Shown here in pieces: positions 284 through 36,956 of a stretch of DNA of 38,402 bases. Both the position numbers and the translations under genes were made by a program. The notes under the pieces were generated by a model. That model saw only the letters and a list, made by a program, of their open reading frames with translations, did no database searches and was not told the origin of the DNA. Source of the DNA: Clostridia bacterium (GTDB lineage Bacteria > Bacillota > Clostridia > Lutisporales > Lutisporaceae); contig DASPIR010000004.1 of the NCBI GenBank assembly GCA_035628995.1, forward strand, positions 1 through 38,402. Reading direction: 5' to 3'. Position 1 is the first letter of the stretch. The number at the start of each line of letters is the position of its first letter.

Positions 284-1573
284 TATATCTATATTTCCAT
301 TGTTTGTTGTAAGTTCAATCCTGTTCTGTCCAGTGCCCAGCTTGCCCTGTGCAACTGTATCCTGGCCTTCCTTGTTAAGCTGCAGTGGTTTTTCGCAATC
401 AATGTTTCCGAATTTTGTCTTGGCATATATGTCTCCATCGTTAATACTCGCTGATTTGAAATATATATCTCCAAAGGAATTCTTCATCTGTACATTGCCC
501 GCTACATCTTCCGCTTCTATTCTTCCGTTCTTGCTCTCAACTGTGGCACCGCCTTTGACATTATCCAGGTTAATATCTCCAAAAGCATTGCTCAGATCAG
601 CTTTGCCGCTTATATCACTAGCAGTTATACGCCCGTTGTTGTTAGTTATTTTTATATCTCCGCCTATATCAACTGCTTCAATATCCCCAAAGTGGCTTTC
701 AATTACTGCAGAACCGGAAATCTTGCCTGCTGTTATTTCACCATTCTGATTGGTTATATCCGCCTTACCCTCTACATTGCTTACTTCGATATCTCCGAAG
801 GAATTGTCAATATCCACATCTCCTCCTATATCTGAAGCTTTTATTCCACCATTTTTGTTTTCCAGCACGCATTTCCCGTCTACGCCTTCTACTTTTATGT
901 CTCCAAAGCTGCTGTCTGCATTAACGCTTACCTGCTTTGGTACATATACAGTAAAATCAACCTGTGCTTTTGCAAAATCATCCTTATCCCAGTTGGCTGG
1001 GTTCTTTGGAGAAAGCTCTGTGACTTCTCCCTCTTTTATTTCAATTGCATTCCTGGCATATTCTCTTGCTTTGCCTTCATCATTGCACCTTACTGTAACC
1101 TTTGCTTCCACTCTTATGCTTTTTGCATCAGTCGGGAGTACCTTAATATCTCCGAAATCGTTTGCTAATTTAAGCTCTTTCAAGTTGAAGCTGCTCGAGA
1201 TATTATCCTTTGCATACGTCTCGCTAATTTCTGTCCTATACCTGACGCCGTCAATTATCGAATTCCCGCGATATCCGAAAAACATATGCCCCGGGTTATC
1301 GATGTTAATAAATTTTACTCCATTTGAAACAAGTCCGAGAACTATTATAAAGACTATGCACAAACCATCCACACTAAGCTTAACCTCAGTATTGCTCCTG
1401 CCGTAAAGCACCATATAAAGCACCATTTCCAAGCCAAGTCCTATGAGCAATACAGGCCAGTATCTATATATGTCCTTCACAGGAATATCAATAAAATTCT
1501 GTGCAAACAGCAGTACGCCCACAGTGATAAGCCCCACAGCAAGGGTTATGCTGCCCACTTTCTTCTTTATCAT
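278..1573 (-). CDS. Membrane-anchored DUF4097-type beta-solenoid protein
   Basis: 431 residues. The N-terminus has about three hydrophobic segments (near 8-27, 38-57 and 70-88) like the LiaI/LiaF-type membrane region. The rest is predicted to be extracytoplasmic and resembles the DUF4097 putative-adhesin fold. From residue 223 the sequence FGDI recurs at 223, 259, 295, 331 and 367, exactly every 36 residues, alternating with NG-x-I rungs. This gives 18-residue coils of a regular parallel beta-solenoid. SD GGAGGG lies 5 nt or so before the ATG. It is monocistronic with its own terminator. Proteins of this type often accompany cell-envelope stress systems, but no LiaRS or PspC gene is adjacent, so the role is unknown. 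Confidence 0.8.
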   Translation of the reverse strand: MIKKKVGSITLAVGLITVGVLLFAQNFIDIPVKDIYRYWPVLLIGLGLEMVLYMVLYGRSNTEVKLSVDGLCIVFIIVLGLVSNGVKFINIDNPGHMFFGYRGNSIIDGVRYRTEISETYAKDNISSSFNLKELKLANDFGDIKVLPTDAKSIRVEAKVTVRCNDEGKAREYARNAIEIKEGEVTELSPKNPANWDKDDFAKAQVDFTVYVPKQVSVNADSSFGDIKVEGVDGKCVLENKNGGIKASDIGGDVDIDNSFGDIEVSNVEGKADITNQNGEITAGKISGSAVIESHFGDIEAVDIGGDIKITNNNGRITASDISGKADLSNAFGDINLDNVKGGATVESKNGRIEAEDVAGNVQMKNSFGDIYFKSASINDGDIYAKTKFGNIDCEKPLQLNKEGQDTVAQGKLGTGQNRIELTTNNGNIDIE

Positions 1574-1620
1574 TTTGGTCCCTCCAATCCATTTTCTATA
1601 ATATACTACGGATACTGTAT

Positions 1621-1649
1621 AAAAAAGTCTTATGTTTGTTTAGACTTTT
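1621..1649 (-). terminator. Second hairpin with U-tract downstream of the CBS-ACT gene
   Basis: AAAAGTCT (1623-1630) and AGACTTTT (1642-1649) pair perfectly. On the minus strand the stem is followed by a T-run (TTTTTT). It follows the stronger terminator at 1677-1705, giving tandem terminators. It also sits in the upstream region of the DUF4097 gene, so an operator role is possible. Confidence 0.5.
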
Positions 1650-1676
1650 GAAATATAATTTTTACTTCAAAGAGAA

Positions 1677-1705
1677 AGGAGCAGATAGATTAGCTATCCG
1701 CTCCT
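1677..1705 (-). terminator. Intrinsic terminator of the CBS-ACT gene
   Basis: On the minus strand AGGAGCGGATAG pairs with CTATCTGCTCCT (one mismatch, 5-nt loop), followed by TTCTCTTT. It starts 26 bp beyond the stop codon. Confidence 0.75.
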
Positions 1706-1730
1706 AATTTTTAAGCTTTATCCGAATTAA

Positions 1731-2078
1731 TTAATAATTGCTTGCATCTCGTACATCTATGCCTGCGTGGGTCAAGTCTTCTATAAGGGTCTTGGCATCC
1801 TTTGCATTTACTTTCATTACCATTTGCTTTGCCTTTACAACCCTCGAGTCAAATAAGCTCATTGCATCTATTGATATACCATGATTTTTTACTATGTTGG
1901 CTATCTTAGCCATCTGTCCGATAAAATCAGGGAGTACAATGTATATTCTAGTACCTTCGTTATCAACAACCGGTATGTTGGAAAACCTTTTCTCCTGCAT
2001 GATGTCCAGTGCCTTCCTTGCAGATGTCATGGATGAAACAGTTACAGGGTTAGGTGTCATGCGGTTAGAAACATACAT
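1731..2078 (-). CDS. Shortened CBS-ACT domain protein (internal deletion likely)
   Basis: 115 residues from the ATG at 2078, chosen because GGAGGG lies 7-8 nt upstream. A longer reading from 2099 has no SD. Residues 1-45 (MYVSNRMTPNPVTVSS..., IPVVDNEG) are the first part of a CBS domain. From about residue 48 (RIYIVLPDFIGQMAKIANIV) the sequence is an ACT domain. Family members that I know carry two complete CBS motifs before the ACT domain, about 210 residues in all. Here the end of CBS1 and all of CBS2 are missing without a frameshift. The ligand-binding ACT part looks intact. It may still bind an amino acid, but adenosine-ligand binding by a CBS pair seems lost within one chain. Confidence 0.75.
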   Translation of the reverse strand: MYVSNRMTPNPVTVSSMTSARKALDIMQEKRFSNIPVVDNEGTRIYIVLPDFIGQMAKIANIVKNHGISIDAMSLFDSRVVKAKQMVMKVNAKDAKTLIEDLTHAGIDVRDASNY

Positions 2079-2148: not shown

Positions 2149-3672
2149 TTATTTGGCGCTGCTAAGGCGCTTATTGAAGAGATCATCAAACTCCTTGCCG
2201 CTTACTTGCTCGCAAACTCTCAGGAAATCCTCAGTAGTTGCATTTTTAAAGGCATACTCCTTATAGTAGGTTTGCATAATTCTGAAGAAGGTCTCGTCTC
2301 CTGCCTCTCTGCGGATTTCATTCAAAAGCGCAGCTCCCCCGGTATAGACTGCAGGACCGTAATCATCCCAATTGGCATATCTGTCTAAAGACTTAAGTAT
2401 AACGCCATCATATACCTTTGCATCGATATCTTCCTTTGCAGCTTCATCCAAATAAGCATAGAACATATCACCATTGCCTCTGCCATACTCCTTCTCAGTG
2501 AAGACACCCTCCGAGTATGTTGCAAAGCCTTCATCCAGCCAGGCTTCTTCTATCTGGTCATTTCCTACAACTCCATACCACCACTGATGGGCTGTCTCGT
2601 GAACTGTAGTACTCTGGAGGTTATCACCATCGTAATCATTCTCATAATATCTTTCGTTTATATATACGAGGCCTGGATATTCCATACCGCTGGGAAACTC
2701 AGTTTCCACCACCGAGTAAGTCGGATAGGGATATTTGCCGAAGTTGCTGTTGAAGACTTCAATAGATCTTGTTCCGTAGTCCAAGGCTTCCTTTCCCTTC
2801 TTCTCATGTCCTTTGTAATAATATGACTTCACCAAGGTGTCTCCTGCCTTGTCTTCAGCTATTTGAAACTTGTCACTGGCAATAAATGCAAAATCCCTCA
2901 TATTCTTGGCATCGAACTTCCAGCTCACATAGTCTCCCTCCTTCTTCTCCTCCATTATAGAGCCGGAGCTTGCTATTATGTACCCCTTTGGTGCTTTTAT
3001 TCTTACAGAATAATTTGCTGAATCACTATAAAATGGGTCCCCCACAGAATAGTACTTATCCAGGTTCCAGCCATCAGCATCATATACAGCCGCTACCGGA
3101 TACCAATTTCCCATATTTATATTGGTTTCCCCATAGCCGAACCTTTCTCCGGCAGGAGGAATTATGACCTTGTATTTTAGCCCCAGAGTTATAATTTTTT
3201 TAGCCTGCAAAGGCTCCGAAAGCTTGACCTTGAGTATTGTTTCCCCTTCACCCTGAAGGCTGAATTCCAACGCTTTTCTATTCTGCCCATTTGAAAGCTC
3301 AACAGAGGCAATCTCTGAGTACCCAGGCTTGAAACCTCTTGAGTAGGCTCTAGAAAAGTCATCAAATAGGAAGGGAGCTGTTTCTTTCTTTTTAAATGCA
3401 TTGGTATATATGTGGAAGTATAGTTCTGTAAGCTCCACGCTGTCGTTATTAACATACGTTACCTGCTGTTCTGCTGTCAAAGTCATATTGGTTGGATCAA
3501 GTACAGCATCAATATCATACTGGTTTATATCCGTTTCAGTCTGTACAGGTAAATTGGCAGGCATTGGCACTGTGGGAGCCGCCTGTTGCCTTAAGGAACA
3601 GCCTCCAACTGTTGATGCAAGCACCGCAATAATCAGAATATAAGCACTTATTAACCTCACTCTTCGAATCAA
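2149..3672 (-). CDS. M1-family zinc metallopeptidase, lipoprotein
   Basis: About 507 residues. I prefer the TTG start at 3672, because AAAGGTGA sits 5 nt before it, while the GTG at 3681 overlaps that SD. The N-terminus is a lipoprotein signal ending in STVGGC (Cys at about 25). The zinc site HETAH is near residues 358-362 with the downstream Glu in WLDEGFATYSEG (near 381). SGMEYPG replaces the usual GAMEN exopeptidase motif. It is shorter than classical aminopeptidase N because the C-terminal superhelical domain is absent. It is likely a surface-anchored peptidase that releases N-terminal residues from peptides, which would feed the peptide and amino-acid uptake systems in this region. No tight operon partner is seen. 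Confidence 0.88.
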   Translation of the reverse strand: MIRRVRLISAYILIIAVLASTVGGCSLRQQAAPTVPMPANLPVQTETDINQYDIDAVLDPTNMTLTAEQQVTYVNNDSVELTELYFHIYTNAFKKKETAPFLFDDFSRAYSRGFKPGYSEIASVELSNGQNRKALEFSLQGEGETILKVKLSEPLQAKKIITLGLKYKVIIPPAGERFGYGETNINMGNWYPVAAVYDADGWNLDKYYSVGDPFYSDSANYSVRIKAPKGYIIASSGSIMEEKKEGDYVSWKFDAKNMRDFAFIASDKFQIAEDKAGDTLVKSYYYKGHEKKGKEALDYGTRSIEVFNSNFGKYPYPTYSVVETEFPSGMEYPGLVYINERYYENDYDGDNLQSTTVHETAHQWWYGVVGNDQIEEAWLDEGFATYSEGVFTEKEYGRGNGDMFYAYLDEAAKEDIDAKVYDGVILKSLDRYANWDDYGPAVYTGGAALLNEIRREAGDETFFRIMQTYYKEYAFKNATTEDFLRVCEQVSGKEFDDLFNKRLSSAK

Positions 3673-3863
3673 TAAAATCACCTTTCTTTGTTAATATACT
3701 CAAATTGTTATTACTATAGCAGAGATGCCTTTAGTATTCCACAGAAATTGCCGTTAGTCCTCTTATTTATTTTATCCTGCTTTAATTATTTATTAAATCA
3801 CAGTTTGTACTTATGCCCTTCCTAGATTTTATTATAGTTTTTAGAATATTTTCAAAAAACCAG

Positions 3864-3892
3864 TTGTAAAATTCTTCAATCAAAACTATAAT
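3864..3892 (+). promoter_or_regulatory. SigA-type promoter of the response-regulator gene
   Basis: TTGTAA (3864-3869), a 17-bp spacer and a perfect TATAAT (3887-3892) lie 55 bp before the ATG at 3948. The promoter is flanked by the inverted heptamers ACCAGTT (3859-3865) and AACTGGT (3909-3915), a possible operator. Confidence 0.7.
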
Positions 3893-3947
3893 TTATAGGT
3901 GGTAGAATAACTGGTATTTTATGGGTATGAAATATTAGGAGGGTCTA

Positions 3948-4382
3948 ATGGCTCGAATTTTAATTGTTGATGATTCACTTATTATGAGAAGAAACCTGAA
4001 AACAATCCTTTCTGAAGCTGGGCATACAATTATTGCAGAAGCTTCAAACGGTGCTCAAGCATATTTGGAATATAAAAGGCACCTGCCCGATTTAGTGACT
4101 TTGGATATAACAATGCCTTTTATGAACGGGGTTGATGCCCTTAAGAAAATAATAGGTGAGTTTCCCAACGCCAAGATTGTTATAGTCAGCTGTACCAGCA
4201 ACAACAAGATAATATTGGAAGCAATGCAGTGCGGTGCTGAAAATTATGTTCTTAAACCATTTACTGTAGAAAAAGTAATCGGTGTGGCAAACCAGGTACT
4301 CAAAATAAATGAGCCGGTAAGCAGGGAGATAATAGACAAAATATATAAAGTCTTGAACTCACAACCTATATTCCACTCATGA
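3948..4382 (+). CDS. Single-domain (CheY-like) response regulator
   Basis: 144 residues, all receiver domain plus a short helical tail. Acidic pocket D8-D9, phospho-acceptor D53 in TLDITMP, S81/T83 in VIVSCTS, and K103 in LKPF are present. There is no output domain. SD AGGAGGG is 5-6 nt before the ATG. No histidine kinase or chemotaxis gene is adjacent, so it is an orphan. Related stand-alone regulators act in chemotaxis or as phosphorelay intermediates. The gene converges on the AEC transporter and the two 3' ends overlap by 17 bp, with no terminator visible between them. Confidence 0.85.
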   Translation: MARILIVDDSLIMRRNLKTILSEAGHTIIAEASNGAQAYLEYKRHLPDLVTLDITMPFMNGVDALKKIIGEFPNAKIVIVSCTSNNKIILEAMQCGAENYVLKPFTVEKVIGVANQVLKINEPVSREIIDKIYKVLNSQPIFHS

Positions 4383-5313
4383 GTATCATATACACAGGGA
4401 TGAACAATATGCTTAAAACCGTAGATATCGTAACCATGACTGTAGCATAACGATAATCAACATCATAAGCCCGGGCAGCAATTGCAGATTGCGCGATAAC
4501 CGGCATAGCCGATTGTATGATGAACACCTTGGTCATCAGGCTTGGAATCGGTATCACAAGTGCCAGAGCATACACCACCAAAGGTGACAATACAAACCTC
4601 CCCAAGAGCAAAGTCAGCATATCCTTATCAAGCTTTATATCTTTAATGTTTATAGTGCTAAAGGTAATCCCTATGAAAAGTAGTGATAACGGAGTCGTCA
4701 GGTTACCAATATATTTACAGCTATCCATTATGAAGCTTGGTAGCTGGACTCCCAATATTACCAGCGCCAATCCCACTAAAAATCCCAAGAGTGGTGGAGC
4801 GAAAATTCTCTTCACTGTATTCATGCTGAAAATCCTGTCCTCGCACCCTTTTTTATCCTTGCTGATGCCATATATCCCAATAGTCCAGAATAGAGTTGTA
4901 TTCGCTGCATAGTAAAACAGCACATAGGGCGTACTTTTCTCGCCAAAAAGCGCCAGGTTAACAGGCATTCCCATGAATATCGTATTGGAAGCGAAAAACA
5001 TTGCCTGAAAAATACCCTTTCTCTCAGGCTTTACATTTATTAGTCTGGCTACCGCCATTGCAGCCACATAGCAGATGAGCATCGAAGCAAAAGGTATTAT
5101 TATTCCTTTCCCGGCACTATAAAGCTTTTCACGGTCAAAAACCGTCAGCAGGTTAGAAACCATCAAGGCAGGCAGCGATACATTAACTACCAGCTTGGTG
5201 AAAAGCTTTGAAACGCCTTCATCGAACAAGCCCTTGCGGGTAAGGTAGTACCCCAGGACAATCATAACAACTATGCTCAATACACTTTGCAGTGCATTCA
5301 ATACAATATCCAT
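4366..5313 (-). CDS. AEC (auxin efflux carrier) family transporter
   Basis: 315 residues from the ATG at 5313, chosen because AAGGGGG sits 8 nt before it. A TTG further up has no SD. The protein is almost entirely hydrophobic, about 10 membrane segments, with an N-terminal helix motif (GYYLTRKGLFDE) and the inverted-repeat layout of the AEC family. Bacterial members export or exchange small organic acids such as malate or lactate; the substrate here cannot be read from sequence. It lies 31 bp downstream of nhaC and is probably cotranscribed with it. Confidence 0.85.
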   Translation of the reverse strand: MDIVLNALQSVLSIVVMIVLGYYLTRKGLFDEGVSKLFTKLVVNVSLPALMVSNLLTVFDREKLYSAGKGIIIPFASMLICYVAAMAVARLINVKPERKGIFQAMFFASNTIFMGMPVNLALFGEKSTPYVLFYYAANTTLFWTIGIYGISKDKKGCEDRIFSMNTVKRIFAPPLLGFLVGLALVILGVQLPSFIMDSCKYIGNLTTPLSLLFIGITFSTINIKDIKLDKDMLTLLLGRFVLSPLVVYALALVIPIPSLMTKVFIIQSAMPVIAQSAIAARAYDVDYRYATVMVTISTVLSILFIPVYMILMSGI

Positions 5314-32379: not shown

Positions 32380-32408
32380 ATATTAAGCCCTAATTGCTTA
32401 ATTGTCAA
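32380..32408 (-). promoter_or_regulatory. SigA-type promoter of speD
   Basis: On the minus strand a perfect TTGACA (32408-32403) overlaps the stop codon of the preceding nitrilase gene, followed by a 17-bp spacer and TAATAT (32385-32380). The 5' leader would be about 90 nt. Confidence 0.65.
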
Positions 32409-33460
32409 CATTTCGAGCACGATAAGTAGGTATTAAAATAATATGTCTTTTCAAACTCAGGATTGCTGTCACCGTAATACTCATCCTCTTCTCTTTCCTT
32501 GCAAAGGGCTTCCAGGTCTATTTCACCTACTATGAGAAAATCCCCCTCAGGGTGCTCTGATACTGCTACTACACCATCCTCCCTAGGTGTCATGCCAATT
32601 GGTGCAAATATCCCTGCTTTTCCTGTGAAATGCAGACCACAGAACCAGCCGTTCAGTGCAGCCTTGATTCCATACACATGTGCCTCCTGCACTCTTGGCC
32701 ATATGCCCCTGAGTGCCCTGGGTCGCCTATACTCCTCATTATTAGCTATTGGAAGGACAACGACATCACATCCCCTGCTTCTAGCCAGATTGAACACTTC
32801 ATAATATGTTGCATCCATACAGACAGGAAATGCAATATTCCCAATGTCCAGGGAAAATACCTTGAATTCATTGCCTCTCTTAATCCCAAGCTTCTCCTCA
32901 AAATCTGTAAGATGCAGCTTCATCTGCCTTCCAAGAATGTCACCCTCACGGGAAATAATGGCGCCCCCATTATACAAATGGTCATTCTCTCTAATAAAAT
33001 AACTCCCGGTATAAATATATATGGAGTATTTTGAAGCCAGACCGCACATTATACTTTCGATTGCAGCTTGAATCGGTGTTGAAATACTGCAAAGCAGAGG
33101 ATATAGCTTGCTCAAGCCACTGTCCGAGCCGCTCTCGGCATGGATTACCTGTCTTTTGTTCAAGCAGCGGTTTAAGAGGTTGAACCCGGGTATTATCCCA
33201 AGAAGCTCGAAAAAATTATATTCAGGAAAGGCTATTATATCGCAGCCCTTCTCTGCTGCTGATTTTACAAAGCTCTCCATTCTATATGCATAAGCTTCAA
33301 CGTTTTTTGCTGCAGTTATTTTTCTTTGCACAGCAGCAGCCCTGATACTTCCCCTCCCGTCCTTGTGGTTGTTTTCCAGGGCTTTTATGCTGCTAAGGCT
33401 TGTTCTTATCCTGTCTTCTCCAAGCTTCCACCGGAACCACTTTTCCAATAGGCTGTTCAT
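32405..33460 (-). CDS. Carbon-nitrogen hydrolase (nitrilase superfamily), catalytic residues intact
   Basis: 351 residues from the ATG at 33460, 4 nt after GGAGGT. The Glu-Lys-Cys triad is present: E80 in AFPEYN, K181 in RQMKLHL and C214 in FPVCMDATYYE. Members hydrolyse nitriles, amides or N-carbamoyl compounds. Residues 85-140 form an insertion compared with the usual 260-290-residue enzymes, so it is not a standard N-carbamoylputrescine amidase. It is the last gene of the araC - glycosidase - pseudo-nitrilase operon and overlaps the pseudo-nitrilase gene by 68 bp. The substrate is unknown. Confidence 0.85.
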   Translation of the reverse strand: MNSLLEKWFRWKLGEDRIRTSLSSIKALENNHKDGRGSIRAAAVQRKITAAKNVEAYAYRMESFVKSAAEKGCDIIAFPEYNFFELLGIIPGFNLLNRCLNKRQVIHAESGSDSGLSKLYPLLCSISTPIQAAIESIMCGLASKYSIYIYTGSYFIRENDHLYNGGAIISREGDILGRQMKLHLTDFEEKLGIKRGNEFKVFSLDIGNIAFPVCMDATYYEVFNLARSRGCDVVVLPIANNEEYRRPRALRGIWPRVQEAHVYGIKAALNGWFCGLHFTGKAGIFAPIGMTPREDGVVAVSEHPEGDFLIVGEIDLEALCKEREEDEYYGDSNPEFEKTYYFNTYLSCSKC

Positions 33461-34277
33461 GATAACCTCCATTCCGAGATGGCATAAATATATCCTTATA
33501 TGCTTCTATATTGAGCTGTCCAAGAGTATTGAACTTTCTAACCGCTTCCTTCCGCTTTTCATTGTCAAGCTCTGCTGTAATGATTGCACATTTCTGGCTT
33601 TTGCCCTCAAGAGCCAGGAAGCCGTCCTCCCCTGCAGTCATATCCAGGGGTGCATGTATTATGGAAGACCCGTGGAAGTCGTGTCCCTTGAAGCTTCCAT
33701 TGAAGCTGCTTTCCATACCGAAAAATAGGTTAGCCTGCACATTCTGCCAAAGTCCTGCAAGCTGTCTGGACATATTTCTACTGCCTATTATAGCCGTAGG
33801 AGCCAGTACCAGCTTCACCCCTGACATGGCAAGCGCCCTTGAAACCTGCGGATAGAACACATCTGTGGATATGATTATTCCTAGCTTCAATCCCCGAAGA
33901 GAAATACTGTTCAGCTCTGTCCCGCGAGAAAGCCCAAGTCCTTTCTCCCATTTAGCCAGATATATCTGCCTTTGCTCCATTATTTTTTCCCCCTCCATGA
34001 TAATACAGGAGGAATGATAGGTATCCGCATAGTCTGCTTCAAAGTAACTTCCTGGGCATATAGCCATGCCTTTATAAGCATTTGACAGTTCAATTATGTC
34101 ATTTATATATCTCTCACCATTATCGAAGAGACAGCCTAAGAGTGCCGGTAAAACTACCATATCTATTTTGTGCTCACAGCAAAGTTGGAGCCAGCCCGCC
34201 ACCTTCCCTGCAAGTTGTTCATAGCTGGTAAGCTCCAGATAATCATCATTATTGAACACTATTGATGCCGCATTCAT
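33393..34277 (-). CDS. Nitrilase-fold protein lacking the catalytic triad
   Basis: 294 residues. It aligns through its length with the downstream nitrilase: VVLPALLG matches AFPEYNF (Glu to Ala, A45), RQIYLAKWE matches RQMKLHLTDFE (Lys replaced by Ile), and IIISTDVFYPQV matches FPVCMDATYYEV (Cys to Ser, S137). LAGLWQNVQANLFFGMES and APLDMTAGEDGFLAL keep the fold motifs. It is therefore probably a pseudoenzyme, perhaps a partner subunit of the active paralogue. The frame is intact. SD GGGGGGG precedes the ATG, which lies 1 bp after the glycosidase stop. The 3' end overlaps the next gene by 68 bp. Confidence 0.82.
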   Translation of the reverse strand: MNAASIVFNNDDYLELTSYEQLAGKVAGWLQLCCEHKIDMVVLPALLGCLFDNGERYINDIIELSNAYKGMAICPGSYFEADYADTYHSSCIIMEGEKIMEQRQIYLAKWEKGLGLSRGTELNSISLRGLKLGIIISTDVFYPQVSRALAMSGVKLVLAPTAIIGSRNMSRQLAGLWQNVQANLFFGMESSFNGSFKGHDFHGSSIIHAPLDMTAGEDGFLALEGKSQKCAIITAELDNEKRKEAVRKFNTLGQLNIEAYKDIFMPSRNGGYHEQPIGKVVPVEAWRRQDKNKP

Positions 34278-34278
34278 T

Positions 34279-36069
34279 TCATTCCCCCCCTGGGTGATTC
34301 TGAATTAGAACATAATAAAGTGCAAAAGCGAGATATCCGCTGCCTGTGGCAAACCCTACCCCTGTTTTTGCCTTCCCTGTATTCCTATCGAAGCTTTCAC
34401 ACAAGAGTCCGAAATCCATATCGGCAGCTTTCAGCCATTCGATCGCCTGCTCCTGCAGCAATGGATTCAGTATGCTTCCGCACAGTCCCAGCCCCGAGGG
34501 TGTGTTGGGATGGTGATCGCAGGCCAGCTCTTTGATTCTTGATGTTTCGCAGTAATATCTGTAATTGTTGGAGTAGTAGTAATTTATCGTGTTCCTGAAA
34601 AGCTCCTCACTGCTGTCAATAAAACCGTAGTAGTCAAGCAGCCCAAGGTTTCCCGGAGGATCATTGTAAAGACTGAAGCTTCCTTTGCCATCTGCTGACC
34701 ATACAAATATTTTTCTGCCATCTATTTCTTTCACAAGATGTGAATATATTCCTTTATATATACCTTGTATCCTATCGCCAAGGATCCCGGCCTTCTCCAT
34801 AAGACCCCTTTGCTCGTATACACTCAACAGGTTCTTTAATCCTCTCCATAGTATTACATTGTCTACGGTAAGCAAGGGGTATTCACTGGGGTCATCTGAG
34901 GGCATCAGAAAAGTCTTATAAAGTCCGGTCTCGCGGTCATATTCCCTCTCAATTCTCATAAATACAGAATCAAGAATCCTGAGCACATCATCATCGATAT
35001 TCTCCATGCTGCCTATCAGTATGAAATAGCTGGCGGCTTCATCAAGCTCAAATCCAGGGTAAAGTACAGTTCCATCTATATAATGGGCATGGTCTCCTGC
35101 ATTCTTTCCATGCATAAGAATCGTATCCCTGCACAGGCTTAAATGAAAACCCCTTTCCACCAGCTTTATCGCAGGGAATGACCACAAGAAGCTGTCCCGT
35201 TCCCAGAAAGCTCCTGAGACATAATATCTTGGACTTCTCGAAGTCAATGCAGCATATCTGTCACTCTCCATATCTTTTCCTACTGCAAAGAAGTAATTGA
35301 AAAACATGTTTTCATTCAAAAGCCTTTGAAGCAATGTATCCTTAGCATATGCCACAGCTTTGCTCTTTAACCAGTTTGACAGTTCCTCGTATATGCTCCT
35401 GCAGCCCTTCCTCCTGAAATGTATAAGAGTTGTGGAAGCACCATCCATGTCTGAATTTATAGTAATATAAAATGCATTGCTGCCGCTGCATTTAAGCTTT
35501 AGTACAAAACTGCCTTCATCAATGCATTGATGTTCAAAGCTGCTATCTCCACCAAAGGCTATACTTAAGCTTGTGCTGCCCGAGGTAATATTTACCGCAG
35601 GGCTGCCCAGCCATTTATCCAATTTCATTTCCTTTTTAAATTCGGAATCATGGGAGTTGAACCTCAGCAGACTGAGCTTATCAATTGTGCAAACAAGCCT
35701 TGCTTCTATATCTTCAGAGCTTTCCAGCTCATATACAAATCCCTTTTCATAGAGATCCGCATAGAGCTTTACATTAACCCGCACTCCACCCTCCAGCTCA
35801 AAAGAGAATACCGGAATATAGTAATTCTCGAGAACTACACTTGAGCGCTGTATTGATAACCTCCTGTCATCCTTATAAAACTCCGGTTTAAACAGGGTTT
35901 CCTCACCCTTAACCTCCATAAGGCCTTTATTTGATAAGGTTAAAATATTCATACTCCTGACAGAAGCATCATAAGTGCTGATTTCAGGCAGGCTTATGTA
36001 ATGATTGCCTGCATAAAGCACCCTTTCATTTATTTCAATTTCTTTTGGAGTCGTCATTATCTTATTCAT
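34279..36069 (-). CDS. Predicted six-hairpin (alpha/alpha)6 glycosidase
   Basis: 596 residues. The N-terminal 240 residues look like a beta-sandwich. From about 241 to the end is a helical toroid with SGAFWERDSFLWSFPAIK (285-302), DGTVLYPGFELDEAASYF (332-349) and a final TGVGFATGSGYLAFALYY. This plan resembles GH15/GH63/GH125 or amylo-1,6-glucosidase relatives. The acidic residues in WERDSF and ELDEAA are candidate catalytic or substrate residues. There is no signal peptide, so it acts in the cytoplasm. Its ATG overlaps the araC stop by 4 bp (ATGA). The family and sugar cannot be assigned firmly. Confidence 0.75.
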   Translation of the reverse strand: MNKIMTTPKEIEINERVLYAGNHYISLPEISTYDASVRSMNILTLSNKGLMEVKGEETLFKPEFYKDDRRLSIQRSSVVLENYYIPVFSFELEGGVRVNVKLYADLYEKGFVYELESSEDIEARLVCTIDKLSLLRFNSHDSEFKKEMKLDKWLGSPAVNITSGSTSLSIAFGGDSSFEHQCIDEGSFVLKLKCSGSNAFYITINSDMDGASTTLIHFRRKGCRSIYEELSNWLKSKAVAYAKDTLLQRLLNENMFFNYFFAVGKDMESDRYAALTSRSPRYYVSGAFWERDSFLWSFPAIKLVERGFHLSLCRDTILMHGKNAGDHAHYIDGTVLYPGFELDEAASYFILIGSMENIDDDVLRILDSVFMRIEREYDRETGLYKTFLMPSDDPSEYPLLTVDNVILWRGLKNLLSVYEQRGLMEKAGILGDRIQGIYKGIYSHLVKEIDGRKIFVWSADGKGSFSLYNDPPGNLGLLDYYGFIDSSEELFRNTINYYYSNNYRYYCETSRIKELACDHHPNTPSGLGLCGSILNPLLQEQAIEWLKAADMDFGLLCESFDRNTGKAKTGVGFATGSGYLAFALYYVLIQNHPGGE

Positions 36070-36956
36070 ACAAAGCCTCCTGATTTTTCAAGCTCCTCCA
36101 GCAGCTTATGGTGCTGTTTCGGAGAAAGACCATACATTTTTTTAAATGCCCGGACGAAGCTTGAATAATCCCCGAACCCGCACTCAGAACAGGCCTCTGT
36201 CATCGACTTCCCTGATTTTATGAGGGTATTGGCCATCATCAATCGTTTTTGAAGAATATAGCTGTGAATGGTATAACCTGTCTGGCTCTTAAACTTATGC
36301 ATTAGGTGATATCTGCTCATATAAAATCTGGATGCCAGGTTTTCTACCGACATATCTTCACAGAGGTTTTCATTTATATGCTTTATTACTTCTCCAATAC
36401 TTTCATTATAATCCCCTTCTGCATGGTGTTTTACAGCCTCAGGTGTAAGATACAGCCTATTGAGATATATGATGAATTGCAGGAACAATGAATTCTTAAG
36501 CACTTGACTACCAAAGCCGTCTCTCATATACTCTTCTTTAAGCTGCGCAATAATATATTTTCCTTGACGCAGCAGCTCAGTATCCAATCTCAGTAAATTG
36601 CGCTTTTCTTTGGAGGCAATATCGAAGCAGTTCAATAGATTAATTTCCGGACTGCTATGCTTGGATAAAAAATTCGAATTGACCCATATGATCATCCTCT
36701 CATAGGTCATGGAAGCATCAACTATGGTCTTATGTATCTCACTGCTGCTCACGAGAAGTATATCCCAAGGCTTAAGCTTGTATGCCTTTCCTTCTATCAA
36801 ATATGTAACGTTGCCTGATATGAAAATGATTATTTTATTAAAATCATGAAAGTGCAATTCAAACTCCATGCTTTTTTTATCCTTTAAGTGGAATAGCTCA
36901 AAGTCCTTGTTCAGATATCCCCTCCTGCTGCCAGTTACTAAAACATCCTCTTTCAT
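36066..36956 (-). CDS. AraC-family transcriptional regulator with cupin sensor
   Basis: 296 residues. The N-terminal cupin domain (HFHDFNKIIIFISG, then LKPWDILLVSS) should bind a small ligand, often a sugar. The C-terminal double helix-turn-helix is near 190-290 (MSVENLASRFYMSRYHLMHK, then CGFGDYSSFVRAFKKMYGLS). SD AGGAGG lies 6 nt before the ATG. It is the first gene of an operon with the glycosidase and the two nitrilase homologues, whose expression it probably controls. Confidence 0.92.
   Translation of the reverse strand: MKEDVLVTGSRRGYLNKDFELFHLKDKKSMEFELHFHDFNKIIIFISGNVTYLIEGKAYKLKPWDILLVSSSEIHKTIVDASMTYERMIIWVNSNFLSKHSSPEINLLNCFDIASKEKRNLLRLDTELLRQGKYIIAQLKEEYMRDGFGSQVLKNSLFLQFIIYLNRLYLTPEAVKHHAEGDYNESIGEVIKHINENLCEDMSVENLASRFYMSRYHLMHKFKSQTGYTIHSYILQKRLMMANTLIKSGKSMTEACSECGFGDYSSFVRAFKKMYGLSPKQHHKLLEELEKSGGFV

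Follow-up and report, generated by a model that had tools for sequence, protein, structure and literature searches.

A catalytically dead nitrilase paralogue encoded beside an intact one in Bacillota: a probable pseudoenzyme subunit of a heteromeric amidase

Heteromers of an enzyme with a pseudoenzyme have their best-known examples in eukaryotes. The locus described here raises the question of why a clostridial genome should carry, side by side in one operon, two nitrilase-superfamily genes of which only one appears to encode the catalytic residues, and whether the product of the other is a relic, a regulator, an enzyme of a different kind or a partner of its intact neighbour. The window analysed is a stretch of 38,402 nucleotides that makes up the whole of one contig of a 3.65-Mb genome.

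The locus and its two nitrilase-superfamily proteins

On the minus strand the genes for an AraC-family regulator, a GH125-like glycosidase, the dead protein and its active paralogue follow one another head to tail with nearly no spacing (Table 1), a single base pair separating the glycosidase stop codon from the ATG of the pseudoenzyme gene. The open reading frame picked out by a sequence-only reading of this DNA is real, and so is the 68-bp overlap that it reported with the start of the next gene, provided that the active paralogue begins at ATG 33460. This start is taken to be correct because a GGAGG motif sits five bases upstream of it, inside the preceding gene, whilst the longest reading of the paralogue (ATG 33472) would give an overlap of 80 bp. 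The length of the overlap is variable among relatives, many of which have a 4-bp ATGA overlap, other short overlaps or short gaps. The dead protein of the window has a C-terminal extension, and its paralogue a helical N-terminal extension and an insertion. The AdoMet-decarboxylase-like gene is followed in the window by genes for a metallophosphoesterase-like protein and an unknown protein, and it is not recurrent beside the pair in relatives.

Table 1. Features of the putative operon and its flank in the window
Feature	Position	Strand	Remarks
AraC-family regulator	36066-36956	minus	likely first gene of the operon; overlaps the glycosidase gene by 4 bp
GH125-like glycosidase, 596 aa	34279-36069	minus	alignment shows the GH125 catalytic Asp/Glu to be retained
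Pseudoenzyme, nitrilase superfamily, 294 aa	33393-34277	minus	Glu, Lys and Cys replaced by Ala45, Gln104 and Ser137; second Glu (Glu111) and Asp139 retained
Overlap of pseudoenzyme and active genes, 68 bp	33393-33460	minus	the pseudoenzyme gene contains the Shine-Dalgarno of the active gene
Active paralogue, 351 aa from ATG 33460	32405-33460	minus	Glu80, Lys181, Glu188 and Cys214 kept
AdoMet-decarboxylase-like protein, 274 aa	31469-32293	minus	directly downstream of the nitrilase pair

Both proteins belong to the nitrilase superfamily by a curated sequence threshold, scoring above the gathering score of 23.2 against Pfam CN_hydrolase (PF00795) with 26.5 bits for the dead protein, in line with the fold first assigned to it, and 78.8 bits for the active paralogue. 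This generic domain is all that Pfam sees in proteins of the pair, and those that were tested fall short of the cut-off of every NCBIfam model. Structure predictions, built from six-row alignments, support a nitrilase fold for both: the model of the active protein has a pLDDT of 78.5 and its best PDB matches are all of the nitrilase superfamily, and that of the dead protein, which is confident in its N-terminal half only and poor in its C-terminal half, matches the same entries.

The catalytic positions were located by aligning a profile of six orthologues to the Pyrococcus abyssi nitrilase 3ivz and by a joint alignment with the paralogues, and the two alignments agree on the residues that stand opposite Glu, Lys and Cys in the dead protein of the window. 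Of the three substitutions in the sequence-only reading, Ala for Glu and Ser for Cys hold; Ile for Lys is rejected, Ile105 lying one residue past the Lys column, which is occupied by Gln104. The paralogue next door is intact, as had been claimed.

Residue loss, distribution and selection

A census of 46 aligned dead and 46 aligned active members, drawn from 47 loci, revealed that the losses are recurrent and so not a matter of chance. The Glu position of the dead family is held by Ala (22), Gly (11), Pro (7), Ser (3) or Gln (2) and by Glu in none of the 45 readable sequences, one being truncated there; the Lys position is held by Gln in 45 members and Ala in one, and by Lys in 0/46; the Cys has gone from 37/46, its place being taken by Gly (20), Ser (9), Ala (5), Pro (2) or Asp (1), and is kept in nine. 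Glu, Lys and Cys are intact in all 46 active partners. Judged by these alignments, the dead protein lacks the Glu-Lys-Cys triad of a catalytic nitrilase or amidase, and the active partner has it and is a predicted amidase/nitrilase. A displaced active site was sought among the columns of the dead family, but no Cys or Lys column is widely conserved, the highest values being 58% for a Cys column (Leu in the window) and 40% for a Lys column; migration of the Cys and Lys is thus unlikely and was rejected, and the other Glu, Lys and Cys in the active site that would have overturned the idea of a pseudoenzyme did not appear. What the dead family does have is a set of near-invariant polar residues (Gln104, Asp139, Arg147, Gln172, Gln181, Asn183 and Glu189).

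The nine members that keep the Cys (L099, L104, L106 and relatives) do so mostly in a CEDAW context and without Glu and Lys, and are possibly an intermediate state of inactivation. The CEDAW motif prompted a comparison with NAD synthetases, and this kinship was not supported, the best PDB matches being N-carbamoylputrescine amidase and PaNit relatives. In a divergent dead partner at L041 (G009, 1203-1913, plus strand), Gln stands in the Glu column, Ala in that of Lys and an Asp close to that of Cys; a similar form occurs at L165 (G664).

When whole genomes were searched, the two neighbouring genes turned up in further genera of the family and of the class, as well as in numerous families across the phylum; the pair occurs in 39 family labels of the phylum, on the same strand and with the dead gene first throughout, at spacings from overlaps to short gaps. 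With matches accepted up to an E-value of 1e-40, the active gene is present in 72 of the 398 species sampled in the phylum (about 18%). The sequence-only reading had asked whether the two genes are always adjacent, and in 68 of the 72 genomes they are, 53 by coordinates and 15 by a sensitive six-frame search; three of the other four are cut by contig ends and the fourth (G548) has a truncated and divergent remnant, so that no assessable genome has the active gene quite alone. At five loci (L099, L101, L104, L112 and L153) the two are fused in one open frame of 732-833 aa with the dead half first; the fusions fall under family labels f134 and f143, and four of the five are of one label. A scan of contigs with the dead protein of the window gave one distant match, an ordinary nitrilase, and tblastn against plasmids gave weak nitrilase matches only.

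Three loci depart from the usual form. At L160 (G548) the dead-partner remnant (3800-4435, minus strand), which is without its N-terminal half, lies upstream of a divergent active partner. At L157 (G519; 2986-4161 with 4165-5229, both minus) the normally active partner keeps Glu and Lys and has Gly at the Cys position, and both members of this pair may be inactive. At L171 (G585; 2416-3360 with 3335-4348, both minus) the downstream partner scores weakly, its Glu being replaced by Pro and the region of its Cys changed (CFCGEEQY).

An important consideration is whether the dead gene is still under selection. Between close relatives the dead gene has a dN/dS of 0.11-0.23 and the active gene one of 0.09-0.17, and a short pair of 126 codons within the family of the window gives 0.27. 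Both genes are under purifying selection, and the dead one is kept together with the active one in the manner of a prozyme pair; the relaxed selection that would have spoken against the sequence-only reading did not appear, and its view that the gene is not simply decaying is supported. In a quick maximum-likelihood tree, in which the attachment of the outgroup is unsettled, the dead and active families are each monophyletic with an SH-aLRT of 99, and by profile scores they are closer to each other than to the other nitrilases of these genomes; the tree indicates that the dead family has a single ancient origin. Within-family distances of the two are correlated (r=0.88, above all 2000 permutations, of which the maximum was 0.20), and in matched sets the dead-active correlation is 0.86 and 0.93, compared with 0.65-0.72 when either family is set against the GH125-like or the GPH gene, though congruence of the trees is due in part to co-inheritance in one operon.

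Interpretation of the pair

It is probable, at about 0.7 by our estimate, that the products of the pair are the two subunits of a nitrilase-superfamily amidase that is obligately heteromeric. Its complete Glu-Lys-Glu-Cys machinery would come from the downstream gene, and a dedicated pseudoenzyme subunit, like the "prozymes" of trypanosomes, from the upstream gene, with coupled translation keeping the two subunits in equal dose. Near-universal pairing, natural fusions and matching trees are all as would be expected of a heteromer; that the proteins associate physically, that the pair is activated thereby and what its substrate is we infer. Dimers are the building basis of all known functional members of the superfamily (PMC4700190), and the dimer ("A") surface, formed by alpha5 and alpha6, is required for activity in CynD (PMC4981594). 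In the dead family these two helices hold 14 of the 34 most conserved columns in 37 of 260 columns, a concentration that is high in the active family too and so is not specific to a hetero-interface. The subunits may well pair through this surface, where both families are most conserved, and the dead subunit would then position the active Cys or shape its pocket. Counting against the heteromer are the concentration of four of the five fused copies in one family label and two odd loci, G519, where the "active" partner is without its Cys, and G585, where its Glu has become Pro and the Cys region has changed.

These loci, together with G548, do look degenerate, and it could be argued that the dead gene is in general a decaying duplicate heading for loss, since all three catalytic residues have gone from the protein of the window and change in the dead family is faster than in the active one (mean tree distances of 3.8 and 2.8). 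However, the low dN/dS, the open frames in dozens of families and the single origin indicated for the family make decay extremely improbable, and it is rejected on the data for selection and distribution. A different proposal is that the dead protein has become a second enzyme, with a new catalytic activity in the same pathway as the amidase. Its own near-invariant polar set would fit such a role, but there is no conserved nucleophile, only 9/46 retain the original Cys, and neither strict pairing nor fusion would be needed, so that this is quite unlikely. The retention of Gln in place of the Lys in 45/46, and the strong conservation of Asp139, Arg147, Glu189, Gln181 and Asn183, suggest selection on the pocket and not only on an interface. 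They could be read as the signs of a ligand sensor or inhibitor: substrate or product would bind in the vestigial pocket, and the dead protein, rather than forming a permanent part of the enzyme, would control the active subunit or some other process. A constant subunit accounts better for the close pairing and for fusions that always have the same order, and regulation of this kind is an unlikely sole role, but the sensing of a ligand can hold together with the heteromeric-subunit explanation.

As to the reaction, genes for a GH125-like glycosidase, a GPH sugar transporter or both are present in about half of the loci: the former is found in 25/47 related loci, usually directly upstream of the pair, and the latter, a symporter, in 23/47, usually directly downstream, and the acid and base positions of GH125 are kept in 24/24 readable glycosidase copies. 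Since these are recurrent operon partners, it might be guessed, with low confidence, that the heteromeric amidase has an amide-type substrate brought in as a glycoside, and works intracellularly on an amide-type bond in that glycoside or in its product. Fusion loci and others without either partner weaken this guess. A broader proposal, which is tentative and on balance doubtful, is that the pairs represent a widespread and hitherto undescribed group of heteromeric amidases in bacteria, whose obligatory and ancient subunit with Gln for Lys would sense or bind substrate in its vestigial pocket, and that the complex would work with the glycosidase and the symporter on an amide-bearing glycoside.

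Significance and relation to known systems

If the heteromeric explanation is right, an ancient bacterial pair found in some 18% of the species sampled, and fused in places, would allow the steps by which a dead subunit becomes obligatory to be followed in a series supplied by nature. A further consequence would be that many proteins matched solely to the generic carbon-nitrogen hydrolase domain are catalytically unequipped, and that the active enzymes encoded next to them may show no activity when expressed and assayed on their own.

Among characterised proteins, PaNit (3ivz), N-carbamoylputrescine amidase (5h8i) and the Helicobacter pylori CN-hydrolase (6mg6) are homologous to both members of the pair in fold and sequence, and share Glu-Lys-Cys with the active partner, but they are single-gene enzymes with the triad, whereas the proteins of the pair fall below every NCBIfam cut-off. 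The GH125 exo-alpha-1,6-mannosidases (2nvp, 3qt3) match the glycosidase over its catalytic half, with acid and base residues kept, but the glycosidase has about 600 aa and an N-terminal region that GH125 does not match.

The sequence-only reading considered a heteromeric active/inactive nitrilase pair to be unusual. For bacteria this stands, as no nitrilase pseudoenzyme subunit was found described in the open-access literature, only heteromeric plant nitrilases; for heteromeric nitrilases as such it does not, there being a precedent in the NIT4A/NIT4B complexes of grasses (Jenrich et al. 2007, as cited in PMC3537687 and PMC7589853). There, in the accounts given by the citing papers, superfamily paralogues depend for activity on a heteromeric complex, but these are plant paralogues of the nitrilase branch, with no bacterial operon and no fusion, and close kinship with them is not indicated, the plant NIT4 entry 6i00 being a distant match behind archaeal entries of the PaNit/PH0642 type. 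The trypanosomatid pairs of AdoMet decarboxylase with its prozyme and of deoxyhypusine synthase, in which a dead paralogue activates the catalytic subunit through a heteromer (PMC5201418, PMC3663545), differ in being eukaryotic and of other folds and reactions, but they share with the bacterial pair, for which the heteromer is deduced from sequence, a catalytically dead paralogue beside a catalytic one.
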